Positions 2,286-22,239 of a DNA stretch of 64,000 bases are shown here, one piece after another. The notes beneath the pieces were generated by a model. It ran no database searches. It saw only the letters and a list, made by a program, of their open reading frames with translations, and was not told the DNA's origin. The DNA is taken from contig NZ_SNUG01000004.1 in the NCBI RefSeq assembly GCF_012027325.1, positions 1 to 64,000 on the forward strand, written 5' to 3'. Both the position numbers and the translations under genes were made by a program. Position 1 is the stretch's first letter; the number at the start of each line of letters is the position of its first letter. Origin of the DNA: Thermococcus sp. M39 (lineage in GTDB: Archaea > Methanobacteriota_B > Thermococci > Thermococcales > Thermococcaceae).

Positions 2286-2915
2286 ACGGTAGTAGGGAAT
2301 ACCAAAGAAGATGTGGGTTCATGAATATGGACTACTTCACTATTCTAGCAGGTGTATTCTAGAAGTCTTCTTTATCTATAAGGACATTACTGTCATCTGA
2401 AATCTTCTGAGGAGATGGATCTAGTGTCCTTGTAACAAAGCCTTAATCTATAGCAATGGTGCAGTGTACTTTACAAACACAAAGACCATGACATCTATTT
2501 AAGACTTGCCGTTGGTGATACATTACTATGACCGATGGGTATAACTTTCTTATATTATTTTTGATCCTTGAGAAGTTTAGAGTATTGGAACAATACTGTA
2601 CAAAACAAAAATATTGTCTTCTATATCTTTGACCAGTTGTCCGGTAGTGTCATTAGGTTCAGTCAGAAGCTTCTTAAGAATGGGAGAGGATAAGAATGTA
2701 ATGACCTTTTTGTGTTTCTGGATCGATTAGACTTGACGGAATTTATTTTTAATCTTCTATATTGTAGAATGAGCAGTTATAGAACATTGTCCCCCATTAG
2801 GGATAATCTATAATCTTTGGATACTTAAATTATTTTGTGGGATAATGGATAAATACGAGTTTTGCCAACTTTATCTTGTCTTTTCTTTAAATCAGACTTA
2901 TGGGGAGGTGAGGTC
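2286..2915. other. Gene-free AT-rich spacer of about 630 bp
   Basis: There is no convincing ORF, RNA gene or repeat. A short frame around 2630-2690 (reading DQLSGSVIRFSQKLLKNGRG before a stop) has coding-like composition and may be debris of a lost gene. The stretch begins exactly where the helicase gene to its left loses its 5' part, so it may be the scar of a deletion or insertion. Confidence 0.4.
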
Positions 2916-3125
2916 ATGAATAGAGAAGCTTCTGAGTTGAGAGCGTTGTTGAAAATGATTAGGGATTTTGGTGGTAGTGCTTCTTGGCCTGTTTTGGTGA
3001 ATAACTGCAGCAAGTATGGGATTCCCCTCCTAGATTTAAAGCCCCTGCTGGAGATTGCCAAACAAAGAGGACTCATCAAAGAAGAAGCTGGAGTTTACAG
3101 TTTGATGAGAGTTGTGAAGCACTAA
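2916..3125 (+). CDS. Small winged-helix-like protein (69 aa)
   Basis: The start ATG at 2916 is set by a strong ribosome binding site, GGGGAGGTGAGG, just upstream. The 69-residue product (MNREASELRALLKMIRDFGG...) has a predicted helix-turn-helix-wing pattern. The SWPVLVNNCSKYGIP segment and the LLEIAKQRGLIKEEAGVYSL ending resemble small archaeal winged-helix DNA-binding proteins. It precedes the defence island on the same strand and could regulate it, but this is inference. No specific family was recognised. Confidence 0.5.
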   Translation: MNREASELRALLKMIRDFGGSASWPVLVNNCSKYGIPLLDLKPLLEIAKQRGLIKEEAGVYSLMRVVKH

Positions 3126-3309: not shown

Positions 3310-5481
3310 ATGAATAAGCAGAATTTGATGAATACAGGAAATTTTAGGGATTTATCTCTAAAAAAGAGATACACTTCTTTAGACAATACGCTGGTTGACT
3401 TTTTTATTCCTGTAATTGCAAACTCCAAATATTATTACAGGGCAAGTGGATACTTCTCTTCATCAGTATTAGCTGCAGCAGCTAGAGGTCTTGTGTATTT
3501 TATCAATAATGGCGAAAAAATGTACCTAATAACAGGAGTTTTTCTGTCTAAAGATGATGTTGAAGCGATCAAAGAGGGATTGAAGACACCTCCAGAAGTA
3601 CTTGAGGAAAAACTTCTGGAAGAACTTAGAAATGCAAATCTCGAGAGTCTTATAATACGAAAAAGGCTTGAAGTTCTTGCGTGGTTAGTTTCAAAGGGAA
3701 AGTTAGAAATTAAGTTGGCCATTCCTCACGACATAAGTAGTGCGGAGGATTATTCTGAAAATAAAGCAATATGGCACAGTAAATTTGCAATTTTTGAGGA
3801 TTTTAATGGAAATAAATTGCATATTGAAGGTTCAATTAATGAAACTGCAAAAGGATGGATTGATAACGCAGAGTCTTTTTCAGTTCACAGAAGTTGGATA
3901 GATGAAGAAAAAGAGTATATAGCTTCTGCTGAGGAGGAATTCTGGGCTACTTGGAACAATGAAAACCCTAAAGTAAGGACTTATACGATTCCTGAGGCTG
4001 TAAAAAAAGAACTAATAAAAATTGCGCCCTCTGAGATTAAGGACATCGTAGATCCAGAAGAAGTTCTCATCAAGTATCCAGTTTCTGGCTCTCAAATTAC
4101 GCCATGGCCTCATCAGGAAGAGGCAATTCAAGCATGGTATAGAAACCATAGGCGTGGTATTCTCTCTATGGCAACTGGTAGTGGAAAAACTTTGACAGCA
4201 TTATTTGCAGTTAAACGTTTGCCTGAAGATACGTTTATAGTGTTATTAGTTCCATCAAAAGAGCTTGTAATTCAGTGGATAAGGGAGATCAGGAGAGTTT
4301 TTGTAAATGTGCCGATAATAATTTGTTCAAGTCAAAATCCAAATTGGAAAATCTTCTTGAGAGAGTTTATATGGGCATATCAAAAGAAACGCGGTAAAAA
4401 ATTCATAATAGCAACAATTCGTTCAGCTAGTTCAGATACATTCATAGAGCTCATAAATCAAGAACTTGGAGGGAACTATGTTCTTGTAGTAGATGAGGTT
4501 CATAGGCTTGGTGCTAGGAAAAGTAGAAGAATTATGAGAGAACTTGATCCTGCTTTAGGACGACTTGGATTAAGTGCTACACCTGTAAGGATCTGGGATG
4601 ATGTCGGAACTAAAATGATCATGGATTATTTTGGAGGCATAATTTATGAATATTCCCTAAAAGATGCAATTCGAGATAAAAGAATAGTTCCTTATGAATA
4701 TCACGTTGAAATAGTTCCTCTTACTGAGGAAGAATTGTATCAATATAAAGAAATCTCAAGGAAAATTTACAGTACTTATAGACGGATACTTGCCAAGTAT
4801 AATTTGCCAGAAAATACCTCACTTAGGGAAATTCTTGATATTTTAGAGGACAAGAGTGAAGCAATGTTACTCCAAAACTTGCTATTAAAGCGAGCTAAGA
4901 TAATCAAAAAAGCGGAAAATAAAATCCAAAAAACAATAGAAATCATCGAGAAGAATAGAGATAAGTTGGGTAGATGCCTTATTTATTGCCAAGATACGGA
5001 GCAGTTGAATATCTTAGCAAAGGAAATGGCAAAAAGAGGATATAAATTCTTAAAATACTTGGGTGTTCAAGAAAAAGAAAAAAGAGTTGAGCATTTGCGC
5101 CTCTTTGAGGAAGGAGTTGTTAAGTTCCTATTGTCAATTAGATGTCTAGATGAAGGTATTGATATTCCAGCCAGTGATTCGGCAATAATTTTAGCTAGTA
5201 GCACAAATCCAAGGGAATTCATACAAAGGAGGGGGAGAGTACTTAGAAAAGCCCCTAATAAAGAAAAGGCAATTATTTACGATCTCTTCGTTTTTCCATA
5301 TGATGAAACTTACAATTATGAAATTGAGCCAACGGAAATTGAAATTTTCGAGAGGGAACTCAATAGGAGTTTGATATTCTTAGAAAGTGCAATAGACTCA
5401 GAAGACACTTTAATCAAGCTTCTGAGGTTATACCGTAAGTTAATATCATTAGGAGGGATGAATGATGCCGGTGGAGATTGA
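3310..5481 (+). CDS. Phospholipase-D-like nuclease fused to SF2 DEAD/DEAH helicase
   Basis: The 723-residue protein has two halves. Residues about 1-230 form a single PLD/HKD nuclease-like domain, shown by HSKFAIFEDFNGNKLHIEG followed by SIN, the HxKx4D...GSxN signature. Residues about 255-690 are an SF2 helicase: ATGSGKT (motif I), VVDEVHRLG (motif II, DEVH), LSATPVR (motif III) and QRRGRVLRKAP (motif VI). PLD-helicase fusions are typical of archaeal and bacterial defence islands and are thought to act on foreign DNA. It heads an operon of four plus-strand genes, and its 3' end overlaps the next gene by 20 bp. The domain call is firm; the role in defence is inferred from context. Confidence 0.85.
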   Translation: MNKQNLMNTGNFRDLSLKKRYTSLDNTLVDFFIPVIANSKYYYRASGYFSSSVLAAAARGLVYFINNGEKMYLITGVFLSKDDVEAIKEGLKTPPEVLEEKLLEELRNANLESLIIRKRLEVLAWLVSKGKLEIKLAIPHDISSAEDYSENKAIWHSKFAIFEDFNGNKLHIEGSINETAKGWIDNAESFSVHRSWIDEEKEYIASAEEEFWATWNNENPKVRTYTIPEAVKKELIKIAPSEIKDIVDPEEVLIKYPVSGSQITPWPHQEEAIQAWYRNHRRGILSMATGSGKTLTALFAVKRLPEDTFIVLLVPSKELVIQWIREIRRVFVNVPIIICSSQNPNWKIFLREFIWAYQKKRGKKFIIATIRSASSDTFIELINQELGGNYVLVVDEVHRLGARKSRRIMRELDPALGRLGLSATPVRIWDDVGTKMIMDYFGGIIYEYSLKDAIRDKRIVPYEYHVEIVPLTEEELYQYKEISRKIYSTYRRILAKYNLPENTSLREILDILEDKSEAMLLQNLLLKRAKIIKKAENKIQKTIEIIEKNRDKLGRCLIYCQDTEQLNILAKEMAKRGYKFLKYLGVQEKEKRVEHLRLFEEGVVKFLLSIRCLDEGIDIPASDSAIILASSTNPREFIQRRGRVLRKAPNKEKAIIYDLFVFPYDETYNYEIEPTEIEIFERELNRSLIFLESAIDSEDTLIKLLRLYRKLISLGGMNDAGGD

Positions 5482-5710
5482 GGAATTTGAAAATGTTGTT
5501 CGGGTCTTTGATTCAGAATTAGAACTTGAAATTCCAAAAGAGGATTATGATATCTTAAAACAAATAGCGGATAAGTACTCTCTTCCTGTTGAGGTATTGT
5601 TTGAAATAATAATTAGGGAAGAAAAAGCCGTAAAGATTGGTAAGAAGAGAGGAATCAAAAAGGACTTGATGAAAATTATAAACAATTATTTCAGCAGTAG
5701 GTTTGTTTAA
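5462..5710 (+). CDS. Small acidic/helical protein between helicase and DndD-like gene
   Basis: The 82-residue product begins MMPVEIEEFENVV and is mostly helical after residue 25, ending in a basic segment (KIGKKRGIKKDLMKIINNYF). It is preceded by AGGAGGG and overlaps the end of the PLD-helicase gene, so the two are translationally coupled. I recognise no family. Its place beside a DndD-like ATPase recalls the small DndE proteins of phosphorothioation systems, but I see no sequence motif that supports that link. Confidence 0.65.
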   Translation: MMPVEIEEFENVVRVFDSELELEIPKEDYDILKQIADKYSLPVEVLFEIIIREEKAVKIGKKRGIKKDLMKIINNYFSSRFV

Positions 5711-5727
5711 ATGGGAGTGTGGAACAA

Positions 5728-7758
5728 ATGTGGTTGCAGAAAATTGTTGTGAAAAATTTTAAACCTTATCGAGAAAAAGTCGAAATACCCTTTGATCGCA
5801 GTTGTTCTCAGTTAGATAAGCACATATTCGTAATTTATGGTGATAACGGATTTGGAAAGACTTCCCTATTAGATGCCATTTATTGGGGGCTTTTTGGACA
5901 AAAAGCTAGAAAAACCCATTTACTTTTTAACGACAAGGAAGCGAAAAAGAGAAAAACTGAAATGTTTGTTGAGTTGACATTTTATGATGAGGTTTTGGAT
6001 AAGACATATGTTATATTTAGAAAAGCAACAAAAAATGGGAATACTATCCATGAAACTCTTGAAGTCATTGTTGATGGCGAGTCCATAGTTGGAGATCCAC
6101 TTTATAAGCAAGACTATATTGAACAACACCTAATTCCTTATGAGATCAGTAGATTCTTCTTTTTTGATGCAGAGGACGTAAAAACGTTGGCTAAAGAGCA
6201 AGGGGGAGAAATGGTCAAGGATTCTGTAGAACTACTTCTTGGACTAAAGGCAATTCGGGAATCAATTGAAGATCTGAACAGTGTGAGGGAGGAGCTTGAA
6301 AAACAGAGAAAGAAATATCTCAAAGAAGAAGATAAGCTCCAAGAAATAGGACAAAAATTAGAGGAAGTGTCTAAGAAGTTGAAATCTTACAAGGAGCAGT
6401 ATGAGAAAACTGAAGCAGAGCTTAAGAAGAAAAGAGAAAATATGGCACAGCTAAGAAAAGAGCTTGCTGAGTTTGGCCATGAGGAAATTAAAAAGTTAAC
6501 AGAAAAAAGGGAGCAATTAGAATCAAAACTGAAAGTATTGATGAATGAAAAGGAAAAAATTAAGAAAGATCTCGAGGAGCTAAGTGCTAACATTCATCTT
6601 TTAATCCTCAAGCCAGAATTAGTAAGTGCCAAAGAAAAAATTGAAAAGAAATTAAAAGAGTTACAAAATAAACAAGAAGAATTAAGGGAATTAAGTCTCA
6701 GAATACGATTTTTAGAAAGACTTTTGGAAGAATCAAGATGCCCAGTATGTGGGAGAATACCATTGGACATGGATATCCAGATATTGAAAATGGAATTAGA
6801 AGAGTTAAAAAAGGAGTATCCTTTGGTTTCTGAGAGATTGAAGGGCATCGAAGAGGAATATTCCAAATATCATCATTTACATTCTCAGCTTATACAGAAG
6901 CTGGAAAATATTAAGTACCTTTCAACAAATGATATTTATGAACTTCGTATAAAGCTTCGTGAAAAAGAAGAGGAGATTGCTGATGTTCAAAAGCAAATAA
7001 AGAAGATCAGCGAAACGTTGAAGAACGCTGGAATATCTCTTGTTTCTCAAATTGAAAGTAAGATCTCGGACCTGCAGCGTGAGATAGGTAGGCTCGAAGG
7101 AGAAGCCAAGAGACTTTCTAATGAGATTGAAAGATTAGAGTTGGAAAAGAGAAAGCTCGAGAAGAAATTAAAGATATATACCTCAAAAGGATCTGAATTT
7201 TCGGAGATTGAAGCTAAAATTGACTTTGTTGACACTATCAAGGCAGCATTAGAAGAATACTTAGAAGTAATGGTAGAAAAAAGAAGAAATGACATAATAA
7301 GAACCTCCTCCGAAATATTCCTCAAATTAACAAACAAAAAAGAAGAATATGTGGGGTTCGAATTTAGTAGTCAGAATAACTATAAGTTCCAGATTGTATG
7401 TAAAGATGGTTCTAGACCTAATATGGATACAATCTCTTATGGAGAAATGGAAGTAGTTGCATTAAGCTTTATTCTTGGGCTCAGCAAGTATTCTCAAATT
7501 AAAGCTCCAATCATTACAGATACATTGTTTGGAAGACTAAGCCCATATGTTCAAGAAAACATAGCAAAATTATTCTCAGAGATGGATAACCAGATAATTC
7601 TTCTTGTTTTGAAAGACGAGAGACCGAACGGTAAGACTGAAATAGACCTTATAGCCCCAATATTCAAGCATAAGATTTGTAAAGAGTTTATTATTCAGAG
7701 AAACCAAATCAATAGGGAATCTTCGATTTTTGAGGGTAAAGTTCTGGTAGGTGATTGA
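5728..7758 (+). CDS. DndD/Rad50-like SMC-family ATPase with zinc hook
   Basis: This is an SMC/Rad50-type ABC ATPase. Walker A is GDNGFGKTSLLDAIYWGLFG near residue 38. Long coiled coils flank a Rad50-type zinc hook, SRCPVCGRIP, near residue 335. The C-terminal lobe has SYGEMEVVALSF in place of a classic signature motif and the Walker B region ITDTLFGRLSP. The ending DTxxGRLx is typical of DndD proteins, which couple ATP hydrolysis to DNA end or nick recognition in sulfur-modification systems. ATG 5728 is preferred over the GTG nine bases earlier because GGGAGTG is then well spaced. No DndA, DndB or DndC is nearby, so the protein likely serves a different defence complex with the neighbouring helicase. 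Confidence 0.8.
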   Translation: MWLQKIVVKNFKPYREKVEIPFDRSCSQLDKHIFVIYGDNGFGKTSLLDAIYWGLFGQKARKTHLLFNDKEAKKRKTEMFVELTFYDEVLDKTYVIFRKATKNGNTIHETLEVIVDGESIVGDPLYKQDYIEQHLIPYEISRFFFFDAEDVKTLAKEQGGEMVKDSVELLLGLKAIRESIEDLNSVREELEKQRKKYLKEEDKLQEIGQKLEEVSKKLKSYKEQYEKTEAELKKKRENMAQLRKELAEFGHEEIKKLTEKREQLESKLKVLMNEKEKIKKDLEELSANIHLLILKPELVSAKEKIEKKLKELQNKQEELRELSLRIRFLERLLEESRCPVCGRIPLDMDIQILKMELEELKKEYPLVSERLKGIEEEYSKYHHLHSQLIQKLENIKYLSTNDIYELRIKLREKEEEIADVQKQIKKISETLKNAGISLVSQIESKISDLQREIGRLEGEAKRLSNEIERLELEKRKLEKKLKIYTSKGSEFSEIEAKIDFVDTIKAALEEYLEVMVEKRRNDIIRTSSEIFLKLTNKKEEYVGFEFSSQNNYKFQIVCKDGSRPNMDTISYGEMEVVALSFILGLSKYSQIKAPIITDTLFGRLSPYVQENIAKLFSEMDNQIILLVLKDERPNGKTEIDLIAPIFKHKICKEFIIQRNQINRESSIFEGKVLVGD

Positions 7759-7759
7759 A

Positions 7760-8119
7760 ATGCCTTGGTCAGGTAATAAACCCAAAATATATACAGGATC
7801 AAAGGATAAATATGAAGAGCTTGTAAGAGATTACAAAGAGTATTTTCCCTCTTATAGTGTTTTATTTCAGATAGCAGCAGCTGTTGGAATAGTCTTAGAC
7901 CAGAAAAAAGAACTGACCAAAAGGGAGGAGCTAGTGAATACTTATTCTATTGACAAAGATGGAACATTAGAATTATTAATGGAGATTAAATATCCAGATT
8001 TAAGCTCAGAGAAAAGATTAGAAGAACTGGAAAAGTACGCTGAAGCAGGAATTGAAATAATATACGAAGAAGTTATCTCTACTGGGCATTTTGACTTCAA
8101 AAAATATGCAGAAATCTAA
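7760..8119 (+). CDS. Dnd-system-associated-like small protein (119 aa)
   Basis: Translation from ATG 7760 follows a GGTGAT ribosome binding site that overlaps the end of the DndD-like gene. The product has the pattern LFQIAAAVGIVLDQKKEL ... RLEELEKYAEAGIEIIYEEV ... GHFDFKKY. From memory this resembles the family called dnd system-associated protein 4, which accompanies Dnd-type and related defence loci and whose biochemical role is unknown to me. It is the last gene of the plus-strand quartet. Its stop codon overlaps that of the convergent gene on the other strand by 4 bp. Confidence 0.6.
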   Translation: MPWSGNKPKIYTGSKDKYEELVRDYKEYFPSYSVLFQIAAAVGIVLDQKKELTKREELVNTYSIDKDGTLELLMEIKYPDLSSEKRLEELEKYAEAGIEIIYEEVISTGHFDFKKYAEI

Positions 8120-8496
8120 AGAAGAACACTCTTTAAGGCGTTCAAGGCCTTTCTTCCATATTTTAAGTATAACCTATACCACCAATAGATTTCATCTGAA
8201 GGAAGTTCTGCTATTCCATTGGCTATCTTTCTGACTTTTTCTCGATTTATGACAGTTTTAACTGTTTGAGCAGCTAAAATGATTCTGAGGGCACTTTCTT
8301 CATCTATCTCAAAAAATATTAACCCATTCCTATATTGTTTCACGGTTTTTGCGGGTATTCTACTTAAGAGAGTTTCTTTGAGGATAGTAACTTTCCATCC
8401 TTTTAATTTAGTGTAATACACTCTTTCCCCATTTTCGGATTTCCGATACACTCTAAGTGACGGCTTTGGTGAAAGGCTCAATTTAAACTGTGCCAT
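8116..8496 (-). CDS. Conserved-looking small protein downstream of PglZ
   Basis: The 126-residue protein begins MAQFKLSLSPKPSLRVYRK, after an AGGAGGGAGA site. It has a beta-rich first half and a helical C terminus (EIYWWYRLYLKYGRKALNAL). It overlaps the PglZ gene by 14 bp and is the last gene of the DUF499-PglZ operon, so it probably belongs to the same complex. I do not recognise the family. No nuclease or ATPase motif is visible. Confidence 0.6.
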   Translation of the reverse strand: MAQFKLSLSPKPSLRVYRKSENGERVYYTKLKGWKVTILKETLLSRIPAKTVKQYRNGLIFFEIDEESALRIILAAQTVKTVINREKVRKIANGIAELPSDEIYWWYRLYLKYGRKALNALKSVLL

Positions 8497-9397
8497 TGAT
8501 CTCCCTCCTAATTATTACAACAGGCACCAATGATTCCATAATGCTTATTCCCCCATGGGTTATAAATGAATCTCTGCTTTTTAATGCATGGAACCTACCA
8601 ATTGCAACCGCTTCATTTTCCACAATTAGATATGGTGGTTTTTTGAGGTTTTCTCCAAATCGAGGACTTTTTATGGGCTTCCACAAGTACAAGTTTGGAT
8701 TATTCCCTAAAAAGATGTATCCATGGTCGCCAGTAATAACTAAATCAGTATATCTGGAGAGCTCTTTTATCATGTTGATTAACTTCTTTATGACTTCACC
8801 GATATTTTGTAGTGTAGTTCCATGAATCTGGGCATTATGTAAAGGAGCATCAGGATAGTATGAATAAAATGCAAATCCAGTTTTATGACCTATTCTTGGA
8901 GGATCCATGGGATTTTCAATAAGCTTTGTTTTCCATTGTTTCCCGGTTATGATGATCTCCCTGTTATTGAAGTACTCTTTCATAGTAGGACTATCAAAAA
9001 CTATTGTAGCAGCTTTGGAAGTTATTGTGGGAGGATATGCATATGAGAGCTCATACGTAACTCTCTCTTCTCCAAATTCATTTATTAAGAAGATAAGCTC
9101 CCTTATACTAAATCCATCTGCAATTAATACATTTGCATTTATTTCGGATGCTCTTTGGAATGCTTTGATAATGCTTATCTCGTCTTTGTTCTCTGGAATT
9201 AGTAACTCATAAGCTTCTGTTCCCCAATTTTCATAGAGCCACTGTTCAAATGAAGACACTTTTTGTTCAAATTCGGAATAATATTGAAAATCTGGGGAAG
9301 TAAGGAATTTAGAGAAGTCTTTTACTATGAACTTCCCTATTTCTTTTGTTGGATTCTCTGTTGTGATTATTTTTTCCAGCAATGTTTCTGTGATCAT
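8483..9397 (-). CDS. pglZ: Compact PglZ-domain protein (alkaline phosphatase fold)
   Basis: PglZ proteins are alkaline-phosphatase-superfamily enzymes central to BREX and Pgl phage-defence systems. Here the metal-site signatures are visible in order: VLIADGFSIRE near residue 90, VITGDHGYIFLG near 222 and THGGISIMESLVPVV near 280. At 304 residues it is much shorter than BREX PglZ, which usually has about 800-900 residues, and it consists of little more than the catalytic fold. It starts at an ATG overlapping the stop of the DUF499 gene (ATGA), with GGAGGTGA upstream, so the two are tightly coupled. Confidence 0.8.
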   Translation of the reverse strand: MITETLLEKIITTENPTKEIGKFIVKDFSKFLTSPDFQYYSEFEQKVSSFEQWLYENWGTEAYELLIPENKDEISIIKAFQRASEINANVLIADGFSIRELIFLINEFGEERVTYELSYAYPPTITSKAATIVFDSPTMKEYFNNREIIITGKQWKTKLIENPMDPPRIGHKTGFAFYSYYPDAPLHNAQIHGTTLQNIGEVIKKLINMIKELSRYTDLVITGDHGYIFLGNNPNLYLWKPIKSPRFGENLKKPPYLIVENEAVAIGRFHALKSRDSFITHGGISIMESLVPVVIIRREINGTV

Positions 9398-12300
9398 GTT
9401 TTCACCTCCATCTCAACAGTCATCTCCGAAGAGGCGGGGAGAATTTCCAAGACATCTATGTCAATGACTTCTTCTACTATCTCAGGCGTCTCTAGTTCTC
9501 TCTCTATTCTCAACGTAATGTCCTTAAAGAAGAATCCAGCATGTGTAAGCAGCTGTCTTAGATTGGTTATCTTGCTTAGATCCCCTTCGGCTTCCATTAA
9601 CAACTTTTCAAATCCTAAGTGTGGCATTGAGGATTGTAAAGATATTGTGCACTTTCCTCCTTTTATTAGAGATGTTAGGATATTTATGTTCTCAATAAAT
9701 TCCTTCAAGGGGAGTTTTATGGTTGTCTTAACGTATCTGGTCTCTTTCTTTAGGTTAGAACGAATCGTTTTTATAACCTTCTCAATTGTTCCGGATTCCC
9801 TAATTAATTTCCATCTTTCAGTAGGTCCTTCTGGACCTTCTGGTGGCTTACTTACTTTTTTGAACAGCGCAACTAGCTCCAAATTACTACGTGGACGTAA
9901 TGTAATTTCCTCATTGCTTCCTCCACCTTGCCATGAAATAAACCTATAATCTCCAGTTGAGTGTACTATAATCTTGATTGGAGTTTCTTCTGAAATTGAA
10001 ACTTCAAGATGTCCAAATCCGCTTTCTTTTCCAATTTCTTCAGATTCCACTATTATTGGAGCATTTATGACATTTCCGTCTAAATCAACAGTTTTTATGG
10101 TTATTTTTATCTTGGGTTTCTTCTCTTTCTTTTTTACGAGAGCCTCTAAATGGATGTCCTTTTCAAGTGTAACTTCTCTGATAAGCTCTTTGGTTCCATC
10201 GCTCCATCCTAGGAATTCATAATCTTTGGGAAGCTCTATTTTGATCACATGTTTAGAACCGGGGAGATCTTCTAAAGCTTCTCTTGGGCGTATTCTTTCT
10301 CCATCCACGTATATTCCGATATTGTCTACAAGTTTTCCTTCTTTGTCTCTAACCGTTATTGTTAATTTTACCATCCTTACGTCTTTTGTTAGAACACCCC
10401 TGTCTGAAAGCTTGAATATCGAGGTTTTTATGTATGCTTTTCCACTTTCATCAATATATGCAATCAATCCTAATTTCACAGCTTCAATTATTGCCCTTTC
10501 TATTATTTCTGGTTTGGGGATATATTCAAAGCTTGAAACTTTGTAAAAGTACTCTTTTAGTTCGCGCACTTCTATTTTCTTCTTATCTTTGGGCCAGTAT
10601 CTTTCCACCAATGCAGAAGGGGATAAGTTTCTCAGAACCTTTCCACGATTTAGGAGCTTTTCTTCGACTTTCAGGAGTATGTTCTCATGTAACAGTTCAG
10701 TAGTTTCAAGTTCATCTGCTTTTAGGTCTCCGTAAGGATAGACAAGATATTTGTAGCTCAATATAGTTAGTTGGCTTAGGTGTGTGATATTTCTGGTTTT
10801 TTCAAGCTCTAGTGATTTCTCTATAGTTTTTGTCTTTAGATCGGGGTTCTTTTCTTTTTCCTCTTCAATGAGTTCAATTGCTTTAAGCCTATATGCTACC
10901 TCCTTTGCTTTTTCAGTTGTTTCTATATCTGGAACTAAGAACACAACTGTATTTTTATATTCTCTAGGTCTGGTTCCATAGTATTCAAAGAATTCTTTTA
11001 CTTGTGTGATGGCCTCTTTTTTATCACTGGCTGCTCTATCCCAACTCACAAAGGCGAGTTTTAGAGCGTAATCGTTGGAGTCAGGTACCATGTCTGATGA
11101 AGAAGCCCACATTATGATTTTATTCTTTTGGAAGATTCTTTCCTTGGAATGCCTCATGTACTTTTTGTAATTCTCATCAAGCCATTTGTCGAGGGTTTCT
11201 TTTATTATGTCCTTCCAGATTTCTGGATTCTTGTTTTTGATAGTCTCTGTGTAATCACTGATTATTTTGTTGATGTTTGGTTTTCCATAGAATAATCTTC
11301 CAGTGTTGGGATCAACTGAAACGAACCAAGTGCGTTTTAAGACTTCGTTAATTGCAGAGTCAAGGAGGCTTTTGCTAACTTTTGGAGATAGGAGAGCAAA
11401 GTATATGGCATCTCTATCAGTTCCACTCTCACCCGGGACAGTTTCAACAAGAGAATTTAGAACAATAAATCCAAGAACTTTCTTTGCTAAATCCCTAATT
11501 TCTTTGTCTTCAATTGTGTTGAGCCTGTTCCAATCTCCTTTTAATCTGCTAACTAGGAAAACATCTCCAATTTTTGCTATTGTTCCTGCCATTACATAAT
11601 CATCTGTGATATCAATGTGAGAGGGAGTTATCAAGTAAGCATCTTTGGGCTTGTTCTTATATACTGAATAAACTAAGCTTGCAAGGAATCTTAATTCATC
11701 TCTAACTAATTGGAACTCTTTGCTGCCTTTGAGCTTTTCCAGAAGCATATCAACGGCTGGATGGAAGGGATAGCTCTTAACTATAATATCTACTATATCA
11801 GTAGAAAGCGTTATGTTTTCTCTCAAATATGCTTCTTTATATGCCTGAGCAACTTCTTTTGCAGTTTCCAAAAAATGATTGCCTTTGAAGAGGGCTATTC
11901 TCCTAATGTGTTTTGACTCATCAGGGGATGTTACTATTTTAATTGAGCTGTATCTTTCGAGAATGTTTTTGATCTTCCTAAATGCTTTCTCAAATTCTCC
12001 CTCGGGAGTAGCTATGAGCAATGCTGTCGTATAAGTTTCTTCAACTGCAGTTGTCAAGTTTTGAATAAATGCCTTAACTTTCTCTTGTTTATCTTCGTCA
12101 AGTCTTTCAATGTATAGAGTTAGCTCATCTATGAGGATGAGCGTTGGAGCTTTGTTGAACGCTTCTTTCAAAACTGTTGTAGAGGGAACATAGTCCCAAG
12201 AATCGTATTTTTCATCATATTCTCCTAGTTGCTTCAGTATCATGCCCCATATGGTTTTTACTTTAGTGCCATCAGGGAAAGGATAACCGAAGATTTCAAG

Positions 12301-12711
12301 TTTTGTCCCATCTACTACAACAGTTCTAACATTTGGAGGCAACCAAAGATTTAATCCAAATTTCGAAGTGAAGATTGGCCCAATTTCATTCCAGCTTTTT
12401 GTTAAGTGATAGAGCAAGAGCAATGTGTGAGTCTTACCTCCACCGAGTCCAACCCTCAAATGATAAACTGGCCTTCCATTGGCTCCGTTTAAGCGTTGGA
12501 ATATTTCTGTTACAACTTCTCTCATCTTGGATGTGAGGTAAGTTCTCTCAATGAACATTCTCGGATTGTAGTATCTCTCTTCGACATTCACATCCTTGTT
12601 AAGTTCTCTCTTCTCCCAAACGCTTCCCAGGTTTCCAACAAAACTATTCTCGGTTAGCTTTCCTTGAATGACTTCATCATGAGGAACAAGAACCTCCCAT
12701 ACTCTTTTCAT
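9394..12711 (-). CDS. DUF499-family AAA/P-loop ATPase with internal Ig/B-repeat-like modules
   Basis: This large ATPase is of the DUF499 (COG1483-like) type found beside DUF1156 methylases. Walker A is GLGGGKTHTLLLLYHL near residue 95, and the Walker B region is LILIDELTLYIERL near 195. Residues about 780-955 hold two tandem beta modules (DKEGKLVDNIGIYVDGERI ... GWSDG, then DLDGNVINAPIIVESEEIG ... SWQGG) that resemble repeats of bacterial surface proteins, an odd insertion for a cytoplasmic ATPase. The last 150 residues are mixed alpha/beta. ATG 12711 is preferred to the upstream GTG because GGTGGT precedes it. It heads the minus-strand operon with PglZ and shares a divergent promoter region with the methylase. 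Confidence 0.8.
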   Translation of the reverse strand: MKRVWEVLVPHDEVIQGKLTENSFVGNLGSVWEKRELNKDVNVEERYYNPRMFIERTYLTSKMREVVTEIFQRLNGANGRPVYHLRVGLGGGKTHTLLLLYHLTKSWNEIGPIFTSKFGLNLWLPPNVRTVVVDGTKLEIFGYPFPDGTKVKTIWGMILKQLGEYDEKYDSWDYVPSTTVLKEAFNKAPTLILIDELTLYIERLDEDKQEKVKAFIQNLTTAVEETYTTALLIATPEGEFEKAFRKIKNILERYSSIKIVTSPDESKHIRRIALFKGNHFLETAKEVAQAYKEAYLRENITLSTDIVDIIVKSYPFHPAVDMLLEKLKGSKEFQLVRDELRFLASLVYSVYKNKPKDAYLITPSHIDITDDYVMAGTIAKIGDVFLVSRLKGDWNRLNTIEDKEIRDLAKKVLGFIVLNSLVETVPGESGTDRDAIYFALLSPKVSKSLLDSAINEVLKRTWFVSVDPNTGRLFYGKPNINKIISDYTETIKNKNPEIWKDIIKETLDKWLDENYKKYMRHSKERIFQKNKIIMWASSSDMVPDSNDYALKLAFVSWDRAASDKKEAITQVKEFFEYYGTRPREYKNTVVFLVPDIETTEKAKEVAYRLKAIELIEEEKEKNPDLKTKTIEKSLELEKTRNITHLSQLTILSYKYLVYPYGDLKADELETTELLHENILLKVEEKLLNRGKVLRNLSPSALVERYWPKDKKKIEVRELKEYFYKVSSFEYIPKPEIIERAIIEAVKLGLIAYIDESGKAYIKTSIFKLSDRGVLTKDVRMVKLTITVRDKEGKLVDNIGIYVDGERIRPREALEDLPGSKHVIKIELPKDYEFLGWSDGTKELIREVTLEKDIHLEALVKKKEKKPKIKITIKTVDLDGNVINAPIIVESEEIGKESGFGHLEVSISEETPIKIIVHSTGDYRFISWQGGGSNEEITLRPRSNLELVALFKKVSKPPEGPEGPTERWKLIRESGTIEKVIKTIRSNLKKETRYVKTTIKLPLKEFIENINILTSLIKGGKCTISLQSSMPHLGFEKLLMEAEGDLSKITNLRQLLTHAGFFFKDITLRIERELETPEIVEEVIDIDVLEILPASSEMTVEMEVKT

Positions 12712-12802
12712 GATAACCACCCATTTCAGCCAATACTCTTATAACTATTGATGATGCAAACTTATAAGGGTTGTTATAAATTATTCTCGGGATGGTGAAA
12801 AC
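12712..12802. promoter_or_regulatory. Divergent promoter region between DUF499 and DUF1156 genes
   Basis: The 91-bp gap holds two TATA-like elements: GTTATAAATTA for the plus-strand methylase and, on the minus strand, AGTTATAAGAG for the ATPase. The central segment CTTATAAGGGTTGTTATAA could serve either direction. The arrangement suggests joint control of methylase and ATPase genes. Confidence 0.5.
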
Positions 12803-15658
12803 ATGAGGCGTTTAATTGAAAAATGGTTCCCAGTTGTTGAGGCAAGCAGCGAAGCTGCAAGAGAAAGGGCGGGAGGAAACATGCTCCCGCCTACGCATTT
12901 TCTACATGTTTACTGGACGAGAAAACCCTTGGTTCCATCTAGAATTGCTGCATATCTTGCTGTTCTACCTGAGATTGAAATTAGTGATGAGATTAGGAAG
13001 CAGCTTCTCTATCATGTAGGGATAAAAGGGGATCCACGGGCAGTTATTAGGAGGAAATTCGAATATCCACGTGCAGAAGGCCAAAATCCAACTCCTTTAT
13101 CAAGGCTCAGTATCAGGGCGGAAGGGGTTGAGATCAAGCCAATCAAAATCCCTACTGGGGCAGACTTTATGGCTGGAGGAGGTTCTATACCCTTTGAAAT
13201 GATTAGAGTGGGTTATGAAAAAGTAATCGCTGGGGAGTATAATCCAGTCGCATTCACGATTCTAAAAGCATCGCTTGAATATCCTGTTAAATATGGTGAA
13301 AAATTAGTTGTTGATGTTGATAAATATGGCAAAAAGCTCATTAAAAAGCTGAAGGAAGAAGTTAGAGAATATTATCCAGAGCATCCTATTGGTGGGCAGC
13401 CTGAGGACTATGTTTGGATTAAAACAGTAAAATGTCCAAAGTGCGGAAGAGAGATACCAATATTGATGAATAAATGGCTGGATCAAGATAAAGGATATGC
13501 TCTGTATCCAGAAGTTAAAGATGATGAAATCAAGCTTCATGTAGTTAAAGTCAAGAAAATTAGTTCTAGAAAACAAGGCAATAAAACAATTGATTTAGTT
13601 GAAGTTGTTGAGGGTCCATTTAAAGGCATCAAATTTGAAACTGATGGAAATCAGGCAGGAGGGAAGGTTACATGCTTAGCATGTAACTATACGCTCAGCA
13701 AAGAGGAAACCAAGAGGCAATACAAAGAATTCATTGAAGAGAAAGAAGCCCAAGGATACAGGGGAGTGCATCCTCACAGAATGGTTGCCGTTGTCATGGG
13801 GACTGGAAAGAATAGGAAATATTACGAGCCAACATCTGAGATGATAGAAGCTTACAAGAAAGCTGAAGAAGATTTGAGGGATCAATGGGATGAATTAGTT
13901 GCAAGAGAACTTGTTCCAATTCAGCAAATTCCTATTGGTCAGGAAACTGAGAGATTTATTCCTTGGGGGATTCAGTACTTTTACCAACTCTTCAATGCAA
14001 GACAGCTTTTAGTTCATGCGAAGCTGGTTAAGCTAATTAGAGAAACATATAATGAAGTTCTTAACGAAGAGCTTAGCAAAGGAAAGAGCAGAGAAGAAGC
14101 TGAAGATTACGCGAAAGCAGTGACAACGTATTTAACGTTAATGTTTGGGAAGGTCCTTGATTATAATTCAACATTAACTATGTGGAATAGGCCCAAAGGT
14201 GCTATTGCACATACATTTGATACTCATGCATATGGATGGACATGGGACTATGGAGAATTTGACATGATATCTCAGAAGGGAGGCGCCGATTGGGCATTTG
14301 AAAACATGTTAAAAGCATTAAAGGGTCTTGTTAAACGTGTTAAGGACTCTAATTCCCAAGTCGAGGTAATCTATGGAGACGCTGAAGAAGCAACCCAAAA
14401 ATACAATGATTTAGATGTAATCTTTATTGATCCACCATACTACGGTGCAGTCCAACATGGGGAGCTTTCAGACTATTTCTATGTGTGGTTTAGACTGATT
14501 CTAAAGGATATTTACCCAGAGGCTTATCAATTCCTTGAAGTTCCAAAGAGTGAGGAGGCAGTTTACAACGAAGTTAGATGGAAGAAATTAGCAGAGAAAA
14601 GATACGAGGAAAAGTTAAGAAGAATTTTCAAGAACATGCGCGAAGCTTTAGCAGACGATGGACTGTTACTGATCTGGTTTGCTCACAAAGCAGGTGAAGC
14701 TTGGATCAAAACAGTCAAAGCATTATTGGATGCAGGTTACTCAATTTCTGCAATGTGGAGCATTCACAGTGAATATAAACATAGTTTACACATAGCAGGA
14801 AAAGCTGCACTAAGGACGTCAATACTCTTCGTATGCAGAAAGAGGCAGGGAAAAGGAGCTTGGCTTCCCGACGTCATGAGAGACTTCGACGAAAAGATCC
14901 TCAAGAGAATTGAAGAATTAGAAAGCTACGGCTTATTTGGGCCAGATTTGGTTATGGGAGCACAAGCGGAGGCATTAAGAATAGTCAGTGAAGGATGGCC
15001 AGTAAAAGACCCAAGTGGTGAAAGAACACCGGAGCAAATACTGGATGAAGCACTAAACAGGGCTGTTGGCATAGTTATCAATCACACACTCAAGAAAGTT
15101 GCTCCGCATATAGCTGATGTTGATGCTCCAACAAAGTTCTATGTACTTGCTTACAGCTTAGGTTATGGGGATATAATTGACTATGACGATGCAAGAAGAA
15201 TAGCATTAGCTTTAGGCACAACTGAGGGAGATCCAGTGGAGGAGATAGTGATTAAACATAACATTGGAAAGTTCCAGAAAGTTGATGTAGAAGGAAAGAG
15301 AACGAAAGCCGTTAAGCTTTATAACGCATTTGAGAGAGACGAGAAGTCATTAAAAGAAGATTTGATGATTAACATTCTCCACAGAGCAATAAGAGCCCTT
15401 GAAGATGGTGAAAGTATAGATAAGATCGCAACCATCTTAGCAAAAGGCGGGCATTACATCTGCGAAGTTGCAAAAGCATTATACGAGGTTCTTCCAGAAG
15501 AAACAAAAAATAAGAGCTTACAAAAGGAAAAACTCAGACTAAAAGACATCCTTGTGGGAATATGCAACGTAGGTTTACATGAAATTGCAATTGAGAGGAT
15601 GGAGGAAGCTAAGGAACAGAAGAGATTGGATGAATTCATAAAGGTGAGGAAGAAATGA
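12803..15658 (+). CDS. DUF1156-type adenine-specific DNA methylase with zinc ribbon
   Basis: The 951-residue protein is a large amino-methyltransferase of the DUF1156/COG1743 type. The N-terminal block has the family feature HVYWTRKPLVPSRIAAY. The SAM-binding region is DFMAGGGSIPFEMIRVGY. A zinc ribbon is formed by CPKCGREIP and CLACNYTL (residues about 213 and 293). The catalytic motif IV is IDPPYYGAVQHGELSDYFY near residue 553, where DPPY marks N6-adenine or N4-cytosine methylation. The start ATG at 12803 follows GATGGTGA. It probably modifies host DNA as self, while the linked ATPases and nucleases act on unmodified DNA. The gene overlaps the next one (ATGA). Confidence 0.85.
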   Translation: MRRLIEKWFPVVEASSEAARERAGGNMLPPTHFLHVYWTRKPLVPSRIAAYLAVLPEIEISDEIRKQLLYHVGIKGDPRAVIRRKFEYPRAEGQNPTPLSRLSIRAEGVEIKPIKIPTGADFMAGGGSIPFEMIRVGYEKVIAGEYNPVAFTILKASLEYPVKYGEKLVVDVDKYGKKLIKKLKEEVREYYPEHPIGGQPEDYVWIKTVKCPKCGREIPILMNKWLDQDKGYALYPEVKDDEIKLHVVKVKKISSRKQGNKTIDLVEVVEGPFKGIKFETDGNQAGGKVTCLACNYTLSKEETKRQYKEFIEEKEAQGYRGVHPHRMVAVVMGTGKNRKYYEPTSEMIEAYKKAEEDLRDQWDELVARELVPIQQIPIGQETERFIPWGIQYFYQLFNARQLLVHAKLVKLIRETYNEVLNEELSKGKSREEAEDYAKAVTTYLTLMFGKVLDYNSTLTMWNRPKGAIAHTFDTHAYGWTWDYGEFDMISQKGGADWAFENMLKALKGLVKRVKDSNSQVEVIYGDAEEATQKYNDLDVIFIDPPYYGAVQHGELSDYFYVWFRLILKDIYPEAYQFLEVPKSEEAVYNEVRWKKLAEKRYEEKLRRIFKNMREALADDGLLLIWFAHKAGEAWIKTVKALLDAGYSISAMWSIHSEYKHSLHIAGKAALRTSILFVCRKRQGKGAWLPDVMRDFDEKILKRIEELESYGLFGPDLVMGAQAEALRIVSEGWPVKDPSGERTPEQILDEALNRAVGIVINHTLKKVAPHIADVDAPTKFYVLAYSLGYGDIIDYDDARRIALALGTTEGDPVEEIVIKHNIGKFQKVDVEGKRTKAVKLYNAFERDEKSLKEDLMINILHRAIRALEDGESIDKIATILAKGGHYICEVAKALYEVLPEETKNKSLQKEKLRLKDILVGICNVGLHEIAIERMEEAKEQKRLDEFIKVRKK

Positions 15659-16062
15659 CGAGTGCTTCAAAGCTCTATTTTCTTCCCTCTAAACATCTTT
15701 CAAAATTCAAAGCTTTTATGGAAAGTTTAGGCTATGATGTTGAGTCAATGAAGCCTTTAGAGTTCGTAAGGAAAGCACAATTAGGAAAAATAAACTCATC
15801 GGGCATGAAATGCATCATAATTGAGGATGTCTGCAAGTTCCTTAATGAAGAGTTTGTAGATTTGGATTTAGCACTGTCAATGCTTAAGACAGCTTTAACA
15901 AAGGTCAATTGCATGAAAGTCTTAGAGGTGCCAAGAATAACTGAGCTTGGAGACCAGATAGAATTTTGCGGAATTGTGATGGAGATAAGCGGAGTGGAAG
16001 TTTATGAAATGCAGCAATACAAGGAGGATGCTGGAATAGAGCTGACTATTGTTAAGCTTTGA
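15655..16062 (+). CDS. Unknown small protein coupled to the DUF1156 methylase
   Basis: The 135-residue product begins MTSASKLYFLPSKHLSKFKA at an ATG that overlaps the methylase stop codon, so it is translationally coupled to it. It appears mixed alpha/beta, with conserved-looking Cys residues in GMKCIIIEDVCKF and VNCMKVLEV. No family or catalytic motif was recognised. Its placement suggests a methylase partner or specificity factor, which is only inference. Confidence 0.55.
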   Translation: MTSASKLYFLPSKHLSKFKAFMESLGYDVESMKPLEFVRKAQLGKINSSGMKCIIIEDVCKFLNEEFVDLDLALSMLKTALTKVNCMKVLEVPRITELGDQIEFCGIVMEISGVEVYEMQQYKEDAGIELTIVKL

Positions 16063-16074
16063 GAGGTGACTCTT

Positions 16075-16746
16075 TTGATAGAACAATCAATTTATTTGCG
16101 TCTTCTTGGTTTTCTTTATGGAAAAATTACTGAAATTCTTAAAAAGAGAGAGCTTGAGGAAGACTTGCAACTTTTATTGTCTGAAGCATCTAAAAAGCTA
16201 ATTAGGTCTTATGAGCAGTTGGCAGACTCTTTGGCTTATGCTGTTGGGAGCTTGTCAGTGTATGGATTTATAACTGAGGCTCAAGATCCGGAAGAAAAGG
16301 CGAAGAAAATCGTTAATCAACTCGAAAAGAGCTACATTGATTTTATAAATGCTATGAAAGAAACTTTAAGGATTATTGAACTCAATGAAGAAGACTTCAA
16401 GCAGTACTTTTCAAAAGAAGACTGGAGAATAATAAAAATGATGATTGAATCTTTTAAAGAAGAAAAGCCAGATTATAATCTTTTTGTTGATTATCTTCCA
16501 TATATTATTGAAAAAGCTGGGGAATCTGGACGTTTAAATGAGATTAGAGAGAAACAGAAGCGTTTCTCGGAAGCTCTTGGAAAAGAACTTGATGAATTTA
16601 ACAAGAAGCACGGTTTAGTGGTGTTTTCTAATTACATTGGTGAGAAACTTTTTGAAATAGAGGATGAGGTTCTCATTGAGAATATCGTGAAATCCTTAAT
16701 TGAGCAATTTAAATTGATTATTCAAGGTGAAAAACGTGGGAAATAA
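16075..16746 (+). CDS. Helical protein of the defence operon, unknown function
   Basis: The product is almost wholly helical and charged (for example RLLGFLYGKITEILKKREL and EDFKQYFSKEDWRIIKMMIE). A TTG start at 16075 is preferred because GAGGTGA at 16063-16069 is then correctly spaced; the alternative GTG at 16066 lies inside that site. It ends overlapping the nuclease-like gene. I recognise no domain. It may be a structural or adaptor subunit of the methylase module. Confidence 0.55.
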   Translation: MIEQSIYLRLLGFLYGKITEILKKRELEEDLQLLLSEASKKLIRSYEQLADSLAYAVGSLSVYGFITEAQDPEEKAKKIVNQLEKSYIDFINAMKETLRIIELNEEDFKQYFSKEDWRIIKMMIESFKEEKPDYNLFVDYLPYIIEKAGESGRLNEIREKQKRFSEALGKELDEFNKKHGLVVFSNYIGEKLFEIEDEVLIENIVKSLIEQFKLIIQGEKRGK

Positions 16747-17311
16747 ATATTTGAGGCTTATAATAAAAGCGCTTTGCATGATGGACAAGGAAAATTATAC
16801 TCTTCCAAAAGATGATAGTGGAAAGGAAAGGTTTCAAGAAAGACCAATAGCTTATGAGTTCTATTATCAATTGAGAAAGCTTTTAGAAAGTGAAATACAA
16901 GAGGGTAAGATTGCATTTCATGGAGAGCCAAATAAAGGATATCAAACAGATTACCATAAGAAGGTCAGAAAAATGCCAGATTTTTTGATTCATATCCCAA
17001 ATAAAGACAAAAATTATGTTGTCATAGAACTTAAAATGGCAAAAAGGAACATTGAGGATATACTTAAAGATGTTCAAAAGTTAATTAATTTCAAAAAAGA
17101 ACTTGGATATGAACTTTTGGTTCTGCTCCTTTTTGGAAAAAGGAGAGCATTAAAAAACAAATTAGAGAAAGTTCTTAAAAAAGAGGAAAGCAAAGAAATT
17201 CATATTTTTGCATATAACTTGGAAAATCAATCTTTTGAGCATTATCACAGAAACAAATTACTTCAAAAGTATGATAAACAAAAATGTGAAAAGATTATTT
17301 CAAGCGTTTGA
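16736..17311 (+). CDS. PD-(D/E)XK nuclease-like protein
   Basis: The 191-residue protein has the restriction-endonuclease-like core motif: KMPDFLIHIPNKDKNYVVIE followed by LKM, giving the PD...ExK arrangement after a helix-rich start. The downstream helix-strand part (VQKLINFKKELGYELLVLLL) fits the same fold. A GTG start at 16736 is chosen because AAGGTGA lies just upstream; a GTG at 16727 overlaps that site. It closes the methylase operon and could be the DNA-cleaving or nicking component of the system. The motif is clear but catalysis is inferred. Confidence 0.6.
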   Translation: MGNKYLRLIIKALCMMDKENYTLPKDDSGKERFQERPIAYEFYYQLRKLLESEIQEGKIAFHGEPNKGYQTDYHKKVRKMPDFLIHIPNKDKNYVVIELKMAKRNIEDILKDVQKLINFKKELGYELLVLLLFGKRRALKNKLEKVLKKEESKEIHIFAYNLENQSFEHYHRNKLLQKYDKQKCEKIISSV

Positions 17312-17747
17312 GGATCTCTTCATATTCTCTTTCCTTTACATACTTCCCTGAAACCGCAATGAAGCGTTTTGGTTTTACAACTTTTGGATACTTTTTAATA
17401 TTCTTTAGAACTACTGCCATCCATGGTTTTGGTCTTTTTCCTCTTGTTCTCCATCTCTCAGAGGTCTTAATATATTCCTTAAATTCTTTTTCAGTTAGAA
17501 AAATTCTATCTTTGTACTTTTCTAAAATCTTTATTGGATTCTCAAAGAGCTCAATACTTTCAATATCTGCTTCACCATAAAATCCTTGGTCTTCTCTTGA
17601 GGCATAGAATATTATTTTCATGCCGGGCTTGAGTCGTGTAAGAGTAGCTGGCTTTACAAAAACATCTTTTCCTTCTTCAAGGATTCTCTTTAGCAATGGT
17701 TTTGGAACAGGAAAAGCTGCTCCAATGATTTTTTCCTCCTTTTCCAT
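17295..17747 (-). CDS. DUF365-like PUA/ASCH-type protein
   Basis: The 150-residue protein has an N-terminal beta-rich segment (IIGAAFPVPKPLLKRILEEG, KPGMKIIFYASREDQGFYGE) and a basic C terminus (AVSGKYVKEREYEEILKRL). It matches my memory of archaeal DUF365 proteins, which have a PUA-like fold expected to bind nucleic acid. ATG 17747 is preferred because AAAGGTGAG sits directly upstream. Its 3' end overlaps the nuclease-like gene tail to tail by 17 bp. Its function is unknown; the next gene is another PUA-superfamily protein. Confidence 0.55.
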   Translation of the reverse strand: MEKEEKIIGAAFPVPKPLLKRILEEGKDVFVKPATLTRLKPGMKIIFYASREDQGFYGEADIESIELFENPIKILEKYKDRIFLTEKEFKEYIKTSERWRTRGKRPKPWMAVVLKNIKKYPKVVKPKRFIAVSGKYVKEREYEEILKRLK

Positions 17748-17847
17748 AATACTCACCTTTAACTCTCTTATCTTTTCTGGAATAAATACCTTTTGAAATG
17801 AAAATGCTTATCTAGAATGCCAAACTAAGAAAATTTAGGTGGTCATC

Positions 17848-18279
17848 ATGGCGTACTGGCTCTGTATTACGAATCGTGATAATTGGGAAGTTATTAAAAA
17901 GAAGAACATCTGGGGCGTGCCAAAAAGACACAAGAACACCATCGCCAAAGTTAAGCCAGGCGATAAGCTTGTCATTTACGTGAAGCAGGAAAGAAAGGAT
18001 AAGCAAATTCTAGAGCCAAAGATTGTTGGGATTTTTGAAGTTGTGAGTGAGCCTTATCAGGATTCAACCAAGATTTTTAAGTCTCCACCACACTTAAATG
18101 AAACTTATCCCTTGAGAGTGAAAGTTAAACCAATAAAGCTTGGAGAAATTGACTTCAAATCATTAATTCCAAAGCTGCAATTTATCACAAATAAAAAGAA
18201 GTGGAGCGGGCATTTAATGGGTAAAGCAATGAGGGAAATTCCGGAGGAAGACTACAAGCTGATTGAACGCTTGTTCTGA
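17848..18279 (+). CDS. EVE-domain (PUA superfamily) protein, PH1033-like
   Basis: The product ([20 protein letters not shown], then [20 protein letters not shown]) is very close to the Pyrococcus horikoshii EVE-domain protein PH1033 as I remember it. The end [20 protein letters not shown] also matches. EVE domains bind modified bases in DNA or RNA and are often coupled to modification-dependent restriction. The ATG at 17848 follows TTTAGGTGGT and gives 143 residues, the normal family length. Its closeness to a methylase locus may be meaningful, but this gene is also common in thermococcal chromosomes without such neighbours. Confidence 0.85.
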
Positions 18280-18367: not shown

Positions 18368-18982
18368 TTATTCCCTAAGCCCAACTGAATTAAGATAACC
18401 AAATGAGAAAAAGAAGAAATTCAGTAAATCAAAATTTAATCCCTTAACTACTCCTTCATCATGTTCTCTATTTCTTTCAATCTCCTTCTCGGCTCTAGCT
18501 CTTGTTTCGACGTCAAAACTACCCGTCAACATGCTTTCACTCGTCAAGTCAAGCATTGTATTGAGAGCTTCATCAAGATTCTCGACCTTACTCATTGCTT
18601 TCTCAAACTCCACCTGTATCTTTGCAACATCCTCCGCTCCAGGCCCTTCGGCGATGCTCTCAACTATGTCCTTGCTGAACTGAATAAAGTCAGCAGAAAC
18701 TTTAACAAGCTCTCTCTGCAACTCAGCTTCCTCCATTAACAGCAAAAGGCGCTTTGCTTGTATTATTCTCTGCTCTAATGCCAAATATTTAACTGCACTC
18801 CTCTTCAATAGGGCTTCATCCCCAAGCTTTGCAGCTTCCTTTCCCTGTAAAAATACCCTACGCTTGAAATTTTCGAGGTTATTTATGTATTGTTTTAAAG
18901 CCATCTTAGCCTTTCGCATTCTAACTTTTCTTTCAATCTCTTTTTCTTCCTTAGATTTCCAAAACTTGACTACAGGAATCAC
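18368..18982 (-). CDS. ESCRT-III/Snf7-like helical protein C, likely frameshifted near its end
   Basis: The protein has a basic first half and an acidic second half, with long helices in the ESCRT-III arrangement: RKAKMALKQYINNLENFKRR, then LEQRIIQAKRLLLLMEEAEL, then AKIQVEFEKAMSKVENLDEA. The last 30 residues as read (…LLNFFFFSFGYLN…) are unlike the rest. Deleting one A near 18471-18480 would give an ending EIEEIENMMKE with a stop at 18448, a plausible MIT-interacting helix. It overlaps the upstream kinase gene by 4 bp and is the last gene of the operon. The fold assignment comes from pattern only. Confidence 0.6.
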   Translation of the reverse strand: MIPVVKFWKSKEEKEIERKVRMRKAKMALKQYINNLENFKRRVFLQGKEAAKLGDEALLKRSAVKYLALEQRIIQAKRLLLLMEEAELQRELVKVSADFIQFSKDIVESIAEGPGAEDVAKIQVEFEKAMSKVENLDEALNTMLDLTSESMLTGSFDVETRARAEKEIERNREHDEGVVKGLNFDLLNFFFFSFGYLNSVGLRE

Positions 18983-22185: not shown

Positions 22186-22239
22186 ACCTCACACCCAATT
22201 TTCTATTTTTATGCTATGCATCGGAACATTAAACATTAC

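Follow-up and report, generated by a model that had tools for sequence, protein, structure and literature searches.

The beginning of the window, i.e., the whole stretch of 64,000 nucleotides of Thermococcus sp. M39 analyzed here, raises the question of whether two sets of defense genes lying side by side form one system or two. The block covers about 14 kb (positions 3310–17311) and comprises three groups of genes in a plus/minus/plus arrangement: PbeA-PbeB-PbeC-PbeD (plus), DUF499-PglZ-DUF7680 (minus), and methylase-g135-g226-g194 (plus); an EVE gene, extending to position 18279, possibly belongs to it. From the sequence evidence we lean, by a narrow preference, towards a single anti-invader system similar to restriction–modification (RM), with a core of the BREX-related (BR), or Hma, kind and PbeABCD as the effector.

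Composition and Conservation of the Locus

The PbeD and DUF7680 genes stand tail to tail, and their stop codons share four bases (CTAA, 8116–8119), as stated in the original prediction, which was made from the sequence alone. Profile scans find all the genes named there at the coordinates given, while PbeB, DUF7680, g135, and g226 are absent from its list (Table 1). The prediction that Pgl/BREX, Dnd-like, and Hma-type parts are combined in one compact unit also holds, and the unit recurs in the same order in three genera of one family, represented by the window, G009 (Thermococcus sp. JdFR-02), and G101. A search for DUF7680 in 115 genomes of the phylum yields four matches, and the three above the cut-off are these same genomes; the fourth, weak match (G020) is in an ordinary HmaC, DUF7680, DUF1156, HmaA locus without Pbe genes.

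The DUF499 proteins of the window and G009 are 96% identical, and the two loci are collinear over positions 3361–17227, with 84.7% DNA identity. Outside this block, alignment is limited to the EVE gene and a 221-base piece upstream; the flanks past the EVE gene have no further match to G009 or G101, hence, the sites are unrelated. The upstream piece (2880–3096) precedes PbeA; it has a counterpart with 70% identity ahead of the G009 PbeA, in a left flank that otherwise differs. The dN/dS ratio (nonsynonymous to synonymous divergence) between the window and G009 is 0.02–0.13 wherever dS is measurable. The locus is real and compact, is present in three genera, and is under purifying selection. 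A chance island is rejected, since the block is found in the three genera in the same order and orientation with other flanks. The host genome (2.28 Mb in 54 contigs, 99.35% complete) contains the locus on a 165-kb contig opened by the window; the GC content is 0.33–0.40 over the locus and 0.42–0.48 in the adjoining DNA (2-kb windows).

The Pbe module is complete in the A-B-C-D order, with PbeB and PbeD identified by weak profile matches plus position. PbeA matches the PLD_Helicase profile with just 60 bits and TIGR04095 with 1.1e-107, below the cut-off; its motifs HSKFAIFED, GSIN, DEVH, and QRRGRVLR are kept in all three copies, and ATGSGKT is read in the window copy. The PLD-helicase had originally been assigned to the DUF499/DUF1156 part; being PbeA, it belongs to the Pbe part. 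PbeC has a Walker A motif, a C..C hook (CPVC), the signature, and DT.FGRL; its match to TIGR03185 (1.9e-59) is strong, yet at 202 of 246 bits remains below the cut-off. The assignment of PbeD also relies on its alignment to a Pbe locus belonging to the same class. The PbeB model of PADLOC matches the other two copies of PbeB with 6.1e-5 and 4.2e-4, and PbeB also matches the C-terminal tail of DndC (1.7e-4 in the window; 1.1e-3 and 4.4e-4 in the other copies). This likeness points to a possible docking element common to the Dnd and Pbe systems; more speculatively, PbeB might, like DndC, dock on the ABC-ATPase/DndE pair.

In the second half, both proteins that an Hma or BR system requires, the DUF499 ATPase and the DUF1156 methylase, score above their Pfam cut-offs. 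Residues D94, D183, D224, H225, and H281 of the PglZ-like protein are invariant in an alignment of nine stand-alone PglZ sequences from various loci, which predicts an active-looking stand-alone PglZ, with a Pfam score below the cut-off. The methylase has the motifs MAGGG and DPPY and two C..C motifs; judging by family labels and the DPPY motif, it probably makes N6-methyladenine.

Partners Missing From Each Half

The best match to DndC in the host genome scores 28.7 bits, where the cut-off is 290.4 (the other dnd genes were not searched genome-wide), and matches below the cut-off are also seen in five of 14 control genomes. With no DndC above the cut-off, a Dnd system is rejected: the Dnd part of the original prediction is indeed Dnd-like, but it is a PbeABCD module, of the CxC ABC-ATPase/DndE kind, its DndD-like protein being PbeC and its Dnd-associated-like protein PbeD.

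Profile scans of positions 3310–18279 reveal no helicase of the SNF2 type (HmaA- or BrxHII-like). The best HmaA match in the host genome (78.5 bits) is the HKD-Snf2 gene of another locus, on contig 3; every one of the 14 control genomes has a match to the HmaA model, and weak matches to it carry little weight. A genome-wide search for SNF2-related domains returns PbeA itself and the same HKD-Snf2 gene. In the methylase tree, the nearest relatives examined are four Thermococcaceae BR loci (L015, L018, L021, L032; clade support 96/93), all of which have an SNF2-type helicase in the operon; the hybrid locus has PbeABCD where these four have the helicase. Pfam does not detect DUF7680 in the small proteins adjoining DUF499 in L015, L018, and L021. 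The locus is not taken for a plain system of the Hma or Type-3 BR kind, as it has no HmaA-type helicase and the trees, long branches included, do not seem to fit; the predicted likeness to Hma is correct for the HmaB- and HmaC-like proteins and fails for HmaA.

A second defense patch of the host genome (L033, C3:370000-380000) contains, next to the HKD-Snf2 gene (product of 1126 aa), an AbiEii-like gene and another pair of DUF365 and EVE genes.

Mosaic of Old and Young Parts

Synonymous divergence (dS) between the window and G009 is low in DUF7680 (0.20), g226 (0.24), PglZ (0.25), g135 (0.26), and DUF499 (0.27), high in the methylase as a whole (0.82), PbeA (0.88), the EVE gene (1.21), PbeD (1.71), and g194 (1.78), and saturated in PbeB and PbeC. 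Within the methylase, the proportion of synonymous differences (pS) in 50-codon pieces is 0.35–0.71 up to codon 700, a border set post hoc from this profile, and 0.18–0.38 beyond it. The median pS is 0.225 (0–0.44) for 44 pieces of the scaffold, methylase tail included, and 0.665 (0.22–1.17) for 50 others. The rpoB genes of the two genomes differ with pS 0.63, hence, the scaffold postdates the divergence of the genomes, and its transfer or homogenization is implied. The old alleles are those of PbeABCD, the first ~700 codons of the methylase (most of the gene), and the nuclease; the young ones, those of DUF7680-PglZ-DUF499 and methylase tail-g135-g226. The old part of the methylase holds the presumed recognition region, and the young scaffold lies between it and the Pbe genes.

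DUF499, PglZ, DUF7680, and g135 of the window are closer to G009 (95–99% identity) than to G101 (74–87%), and the window and G009 group together in the DUF499 tree (98/94). The same affinity is seen for PbeA (87 vs 78%) and g194 (66 vs 49%), while PbeB, PbeC, and PbeD of the window are closer to G101 (75–88%) than to G009 (59–72%). The N-terminal part of the methylase is about equidistant from both (79% for G009 and 76% for G101); the methylase tree, which uses just the C-terminal piece of G101, joins G009 with G101 (97/84). These patterns are suggestive of turnover of the recognition and effector parts on a platform that stays; they come from one genome pair, and the matching of the parts to each other is beyond its reach.

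Related Loci

An alignment scan of genome contigs for DUF499 yields 318 relatives; the best 80 are JdFR-02 and 79 others at 23–27% identity, and PbeA, PbeC, or PglZ is beside DUF499 in none of these 79 in the DNA examined. The scan recovers JdFR-02 but not the 85%-identical copy of G101, whose genome may be outside the collection. In 549 genomes of two other archaeal phyla, PbeA has matches at E ≤ 1e-30 in 38 of 151 and 236 of 398, the latter mostly to the helicase core. Forty-five stretches around strong matches (covering every match with E < 1e-100 except G364:C180; matches of ~1e-30 to 1e-65 are omitted as mostly helicase-core) contain PbeA in all 45 and PbeC in 40, and DUF499, DUF1156, or PglZ in none. 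Many of these stretches and of the 79 DUF499 loci are on short contigs (~3 kb upwards), and neighbors may be cut off. DUF499, DUF1156, and PglZ are also absent from five further Pbe stretches of relatives (L152–L156) and from the five plasmid records read among 24 that have PbeA.

Cores of DUF499, PglZ, methylase, and a protein of ~130 aa, with no adjacent HmaA-type gene, occur on six haloarchaeal plasmids (L263, L270–L274) and in G044 (L023). The phmmer search used for neighbors, when applied to the six plasmid cores, finds PglZ and DUF1156 in all six and DUF499 in four, so distant DUF499 proteins can escape it; six of seven plasmids with stand-alone PglZ were read, and 40 of 127 plasmids with DUF499 covered. 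The neighbors of the PglZ-bearing cores vary (UvrD plus PD-(D/E)XK genes, an MTaX1-AAA protein, a DEAD helicase), which suggests that these cores accept interchangeable partners. The hybrid DUF499 is outside the clade of seven sampled PglZ-bearing loci (100/99), its exact place made unsure by long branches, and the hybrid methylase, a long lineage of its own with unsure place, is outside five sampled PglZ-bearing sequences. The PglZ alignment has five weak matches in 227 genomes of another archaeal phylum, all in frames of 458–1091 aa.

One System or Two

As a single system, the locus might operate as follows. The DUF1156 methylase would mark a host motif, probably with N6-methyladenine; PbeC-PbeD with PbeB would search DNA for copies of the motif that lack the mark, then engage PbeA; and PbeA, a PLD-nuclease/SF2 helicase, would translocate and either block replication or cut the invader. 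PbeABCD would here stand in for the SNF2-type helicase that ordinary BR systems possess, DUF499, PglZ, and DUF7680 may form a BREX-like platform licensing methylation or restriction, and the PD-(D/E)XK protein could be an auxiliary nuclease. We prefer this interpretation because the set is found in three genera, its halves complement each other, the mosaic exists, dN/dS is low, and there is a precedent: candidate base-modifying genes are near 155 of 320 solitary pbeAC, according to a passage of PMC6459918.

Several observations weigh against it. The sample is three copies and one mosaic pair, and a second lineage with the Pbe and BR pair is not seen among the 79 DUF499 and 55 other Pbe loci checked. 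The differing affinities of the old parts show that they were not exchanged in one step and have no single shared history. HmaB is called an m5C methylase in a passage of PMC8565338 and a DNA-adenine methylase in PADLOC-DB. In the G101 copy, PbeC and the methylase are each in two open reading frames. Finally, HmaA-like helicases are encoded elsewhere in G009 (312 bits, one internal stop) and G101 (637 bits), and in both genomes help from a helicase in trans is possible.

The chief competing explanation, two independent systems side by side, namely a PbeABCD module without a partner and a PglZ-bearing BR core without a helicase, seems to us unlikely, with real points in its favor. The PglZ-bearing cores described above have no adjacent HmaA-type gene, G044 having no HmaA match in its genome at all; Pbe modules exist alone or with other methylases; and the PbeBCD alleles have been exchanged apart from the scaffold. 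Against it stand the same arrangement at different sites in three genera, the overlapping convergent stops, the fact that the Pbe side has no modification gene except the shared methylase, and the coincidence of old Pbe and old methylase parts on a young scaffold.

We regard as improbable that the helicase of a BR system is supplied from elsewhere in the genome while Pbe is a bystander, or that the locus is decaying. The off-locus HmaA-like genes speak for the former; however, that of G101 belongs to another, ordinary DUF499/DUF1156 locus, and no convincing HmaA is present in the window genome. In G009 the gene is on another contig, and the only DUF499 found in that genome is that of the hybrid. 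Decay would agree with the split genes of G101, but not with the low dN/dS and the preserved motifs. As for the G101 locus (L031) itself, its double split could mean that mark and effector were lost together, or could reflect errors in the assembly.

Returning to a single system, we propose a more detailed version with less assurance, as a conjecture that may well fail: PbeABCD would read N6-methyladenine rather than phosphorothioate as the self mark and would work on the BREX-like DUF499-PglZ platform in place of its helicase, and the Pbe genes and the recognition part of the methylase would be the specificity parts swapped between genera on a constant platform. If a single system is correct, the BREX-related and Pbe/CxC families, so far described apart, can form one machine, and PbeABCD would be a plug-in effector able to work with different self marks, as a passage of PMC6459918 suggests may be possible. 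The natural mosaic of the window and G009 permits a direct test of the genes responsible for specificity; the locus could also help to settle the role of PglZ in BR systems and the question of DNA cleavage by PbeABCD.

Accessory and Neighboring Genes

Protein g135 occupies the slot of the ~130-aa protein of PglZ-bearing cores; BLASTP gives no significant match between it and two of these proteins, despite an apparent likeness by eye to the 131-aa protein of G044. According to a passage of PMC12839542, an iSTAND gene is present in 82% of Type-3 BR taxa; g135 is at the iSTAND-type position, has no match by BLASTP, and yields a poor structure model (predicted local distance difference test, pLDDT, 40.8). 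The model of g226 (pLDDT 63.5) has no PDB matches at E ≤ 0.001. The PD...(E)xK motif of g194 is kept in all three copies. The EVE protein may be an accessory of the locus: archaeal DUF499 systems recurrently carry an EVE protein, as a passage of PMC7641849 reports, and the EVE gene is also near the G009 locus, yet there it is older than the block.

A DUF365 gene (17295–17756) is convergent with g194; DUF365 genes are next to or near the DUF499/DUF1156 loci in L015, L018, L019, L021, and L022, and none is found beside the hybrid locus in G009. Farther downstream (18979–25184) there is a row of protein kinases with PEGA and beta-propeller or CARDB domains and a PP2C phosphatase.

Table 1. Genes of the hybrid locus and their best supporting matches (E-values unless given in bits).
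Feature	Coordinates	Strand	Evidence
PbeA, PLD (HKD-type) nuclease domain + SF2 helicase, 723 aa	3310..5481	+	PADLOC PbeA 7.7e-210, 697 bits
PbeB, small protein, 82 aa	5462..5710	+	PADLOC PbeB 1.1e-4
PbeC, DndD/CxC-type ABC ATPase, 679 aa	5719..7758	+	PADLOC PbeC 1.6e-76
PbeD, 122 aa, DndE-like by published reannotation	7751..8119	+	TIGR04062 2.3e-4, below cut-off; PADLOC PbeD 0.011
DUF7680 protein, 126 aa	8116..8496	-	PF24728 45.4 bits, cut-off 24
Stand-alone PglZ-like protein, 304 aa	8483..9397	-	PF08665 0.0016, below cut-off
DUF499 AAA+ ATPase, HmaC-like, 1108 aa	9394..12720	-	PF04465 1.7e-35, above cut-off; HmaC 7.4e-66
DUF1156 DNA methylase, HmaB-like, 951 aa	12803..15658	+	PF06634 30.2 bits, cut-off 24; HmaB 7.8e-70
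g135, 135 aa	15655..16062	+	87–99% identical in three genera
g226, predicted all-helical, optional, 226 aa	16066..16746	+	95% identical in G009; not found in G101
g194, PD-(D/E)XK nuclease-like, 194 aa	16727..17311	+	PADLOC PD-Lambda-3_A 1.4e-5 (weak)
EVE protein, possible accessory	17839..18279	+	PF01878 9.3e-27

Comparison With Known Systems

No defined subtype with the same gene set is found among the protein models scanned (models, not system rules) or in the literature found. The combination is undescribed in the passages of that literature, PMC12707154 included, supplements lying outside this scope; the main text of PMC12839542, where BR Types 1–3 are defined, does not contain "DndD" or "Pbe", and that of PMC10853773 does not contain "DUF499", "PglZ", or "DUF1156".

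Similar to Type-3 BR systems as defined in PMC12839542, the locus joins a DUF499 ATPase, a DUF1156 methylase, and a stand-alone PglZ; unlike them, it has no BrxHII-like helicase and has PbeABCD, DUF7680, and the PD-(D/E)XK protein, and its DUF499 and methylase lie, on long branches, outside the sampled PglZ-bearing sequences. Hma (PADLOC; PMC8565338), corresponding to BR Types 1 and 2, shares the HmaB- and HmaC-like proteins, but the locus has no HmaA and has PglZ and Pbe. With BREX it shares PglZ and the DUF499 ATPase, which PMC12839542 relates to BrxC, whereas BrxL, BrxA, BrxB, and PglX are not among the best matches of the locus, and PglXI is just a weaker match of the methylase.

PbeABCD, redefined as a CxC-DndE system in PMC10853773, shares with the locus the four genes, their A-B-C-D order, and the motifs (PMC6459918; PMC10853773). 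As reported in passages of these papers, Pbe arrests viral replication without DNA cleavage and needs all four pbe genes (PMC6459918), and the methylases of CxC systems are C5 and N4 cytosine methylases (PMC10853773). Different from the first-described PbeABCD, the locus has no DndCDEA (DndC searched genome-wide), and the module is joined to the DUF1156 methylase, DUF499, and PglZ. The locus is thus a joining of two known kinds of system, BREX-related and Pbe/CxC.

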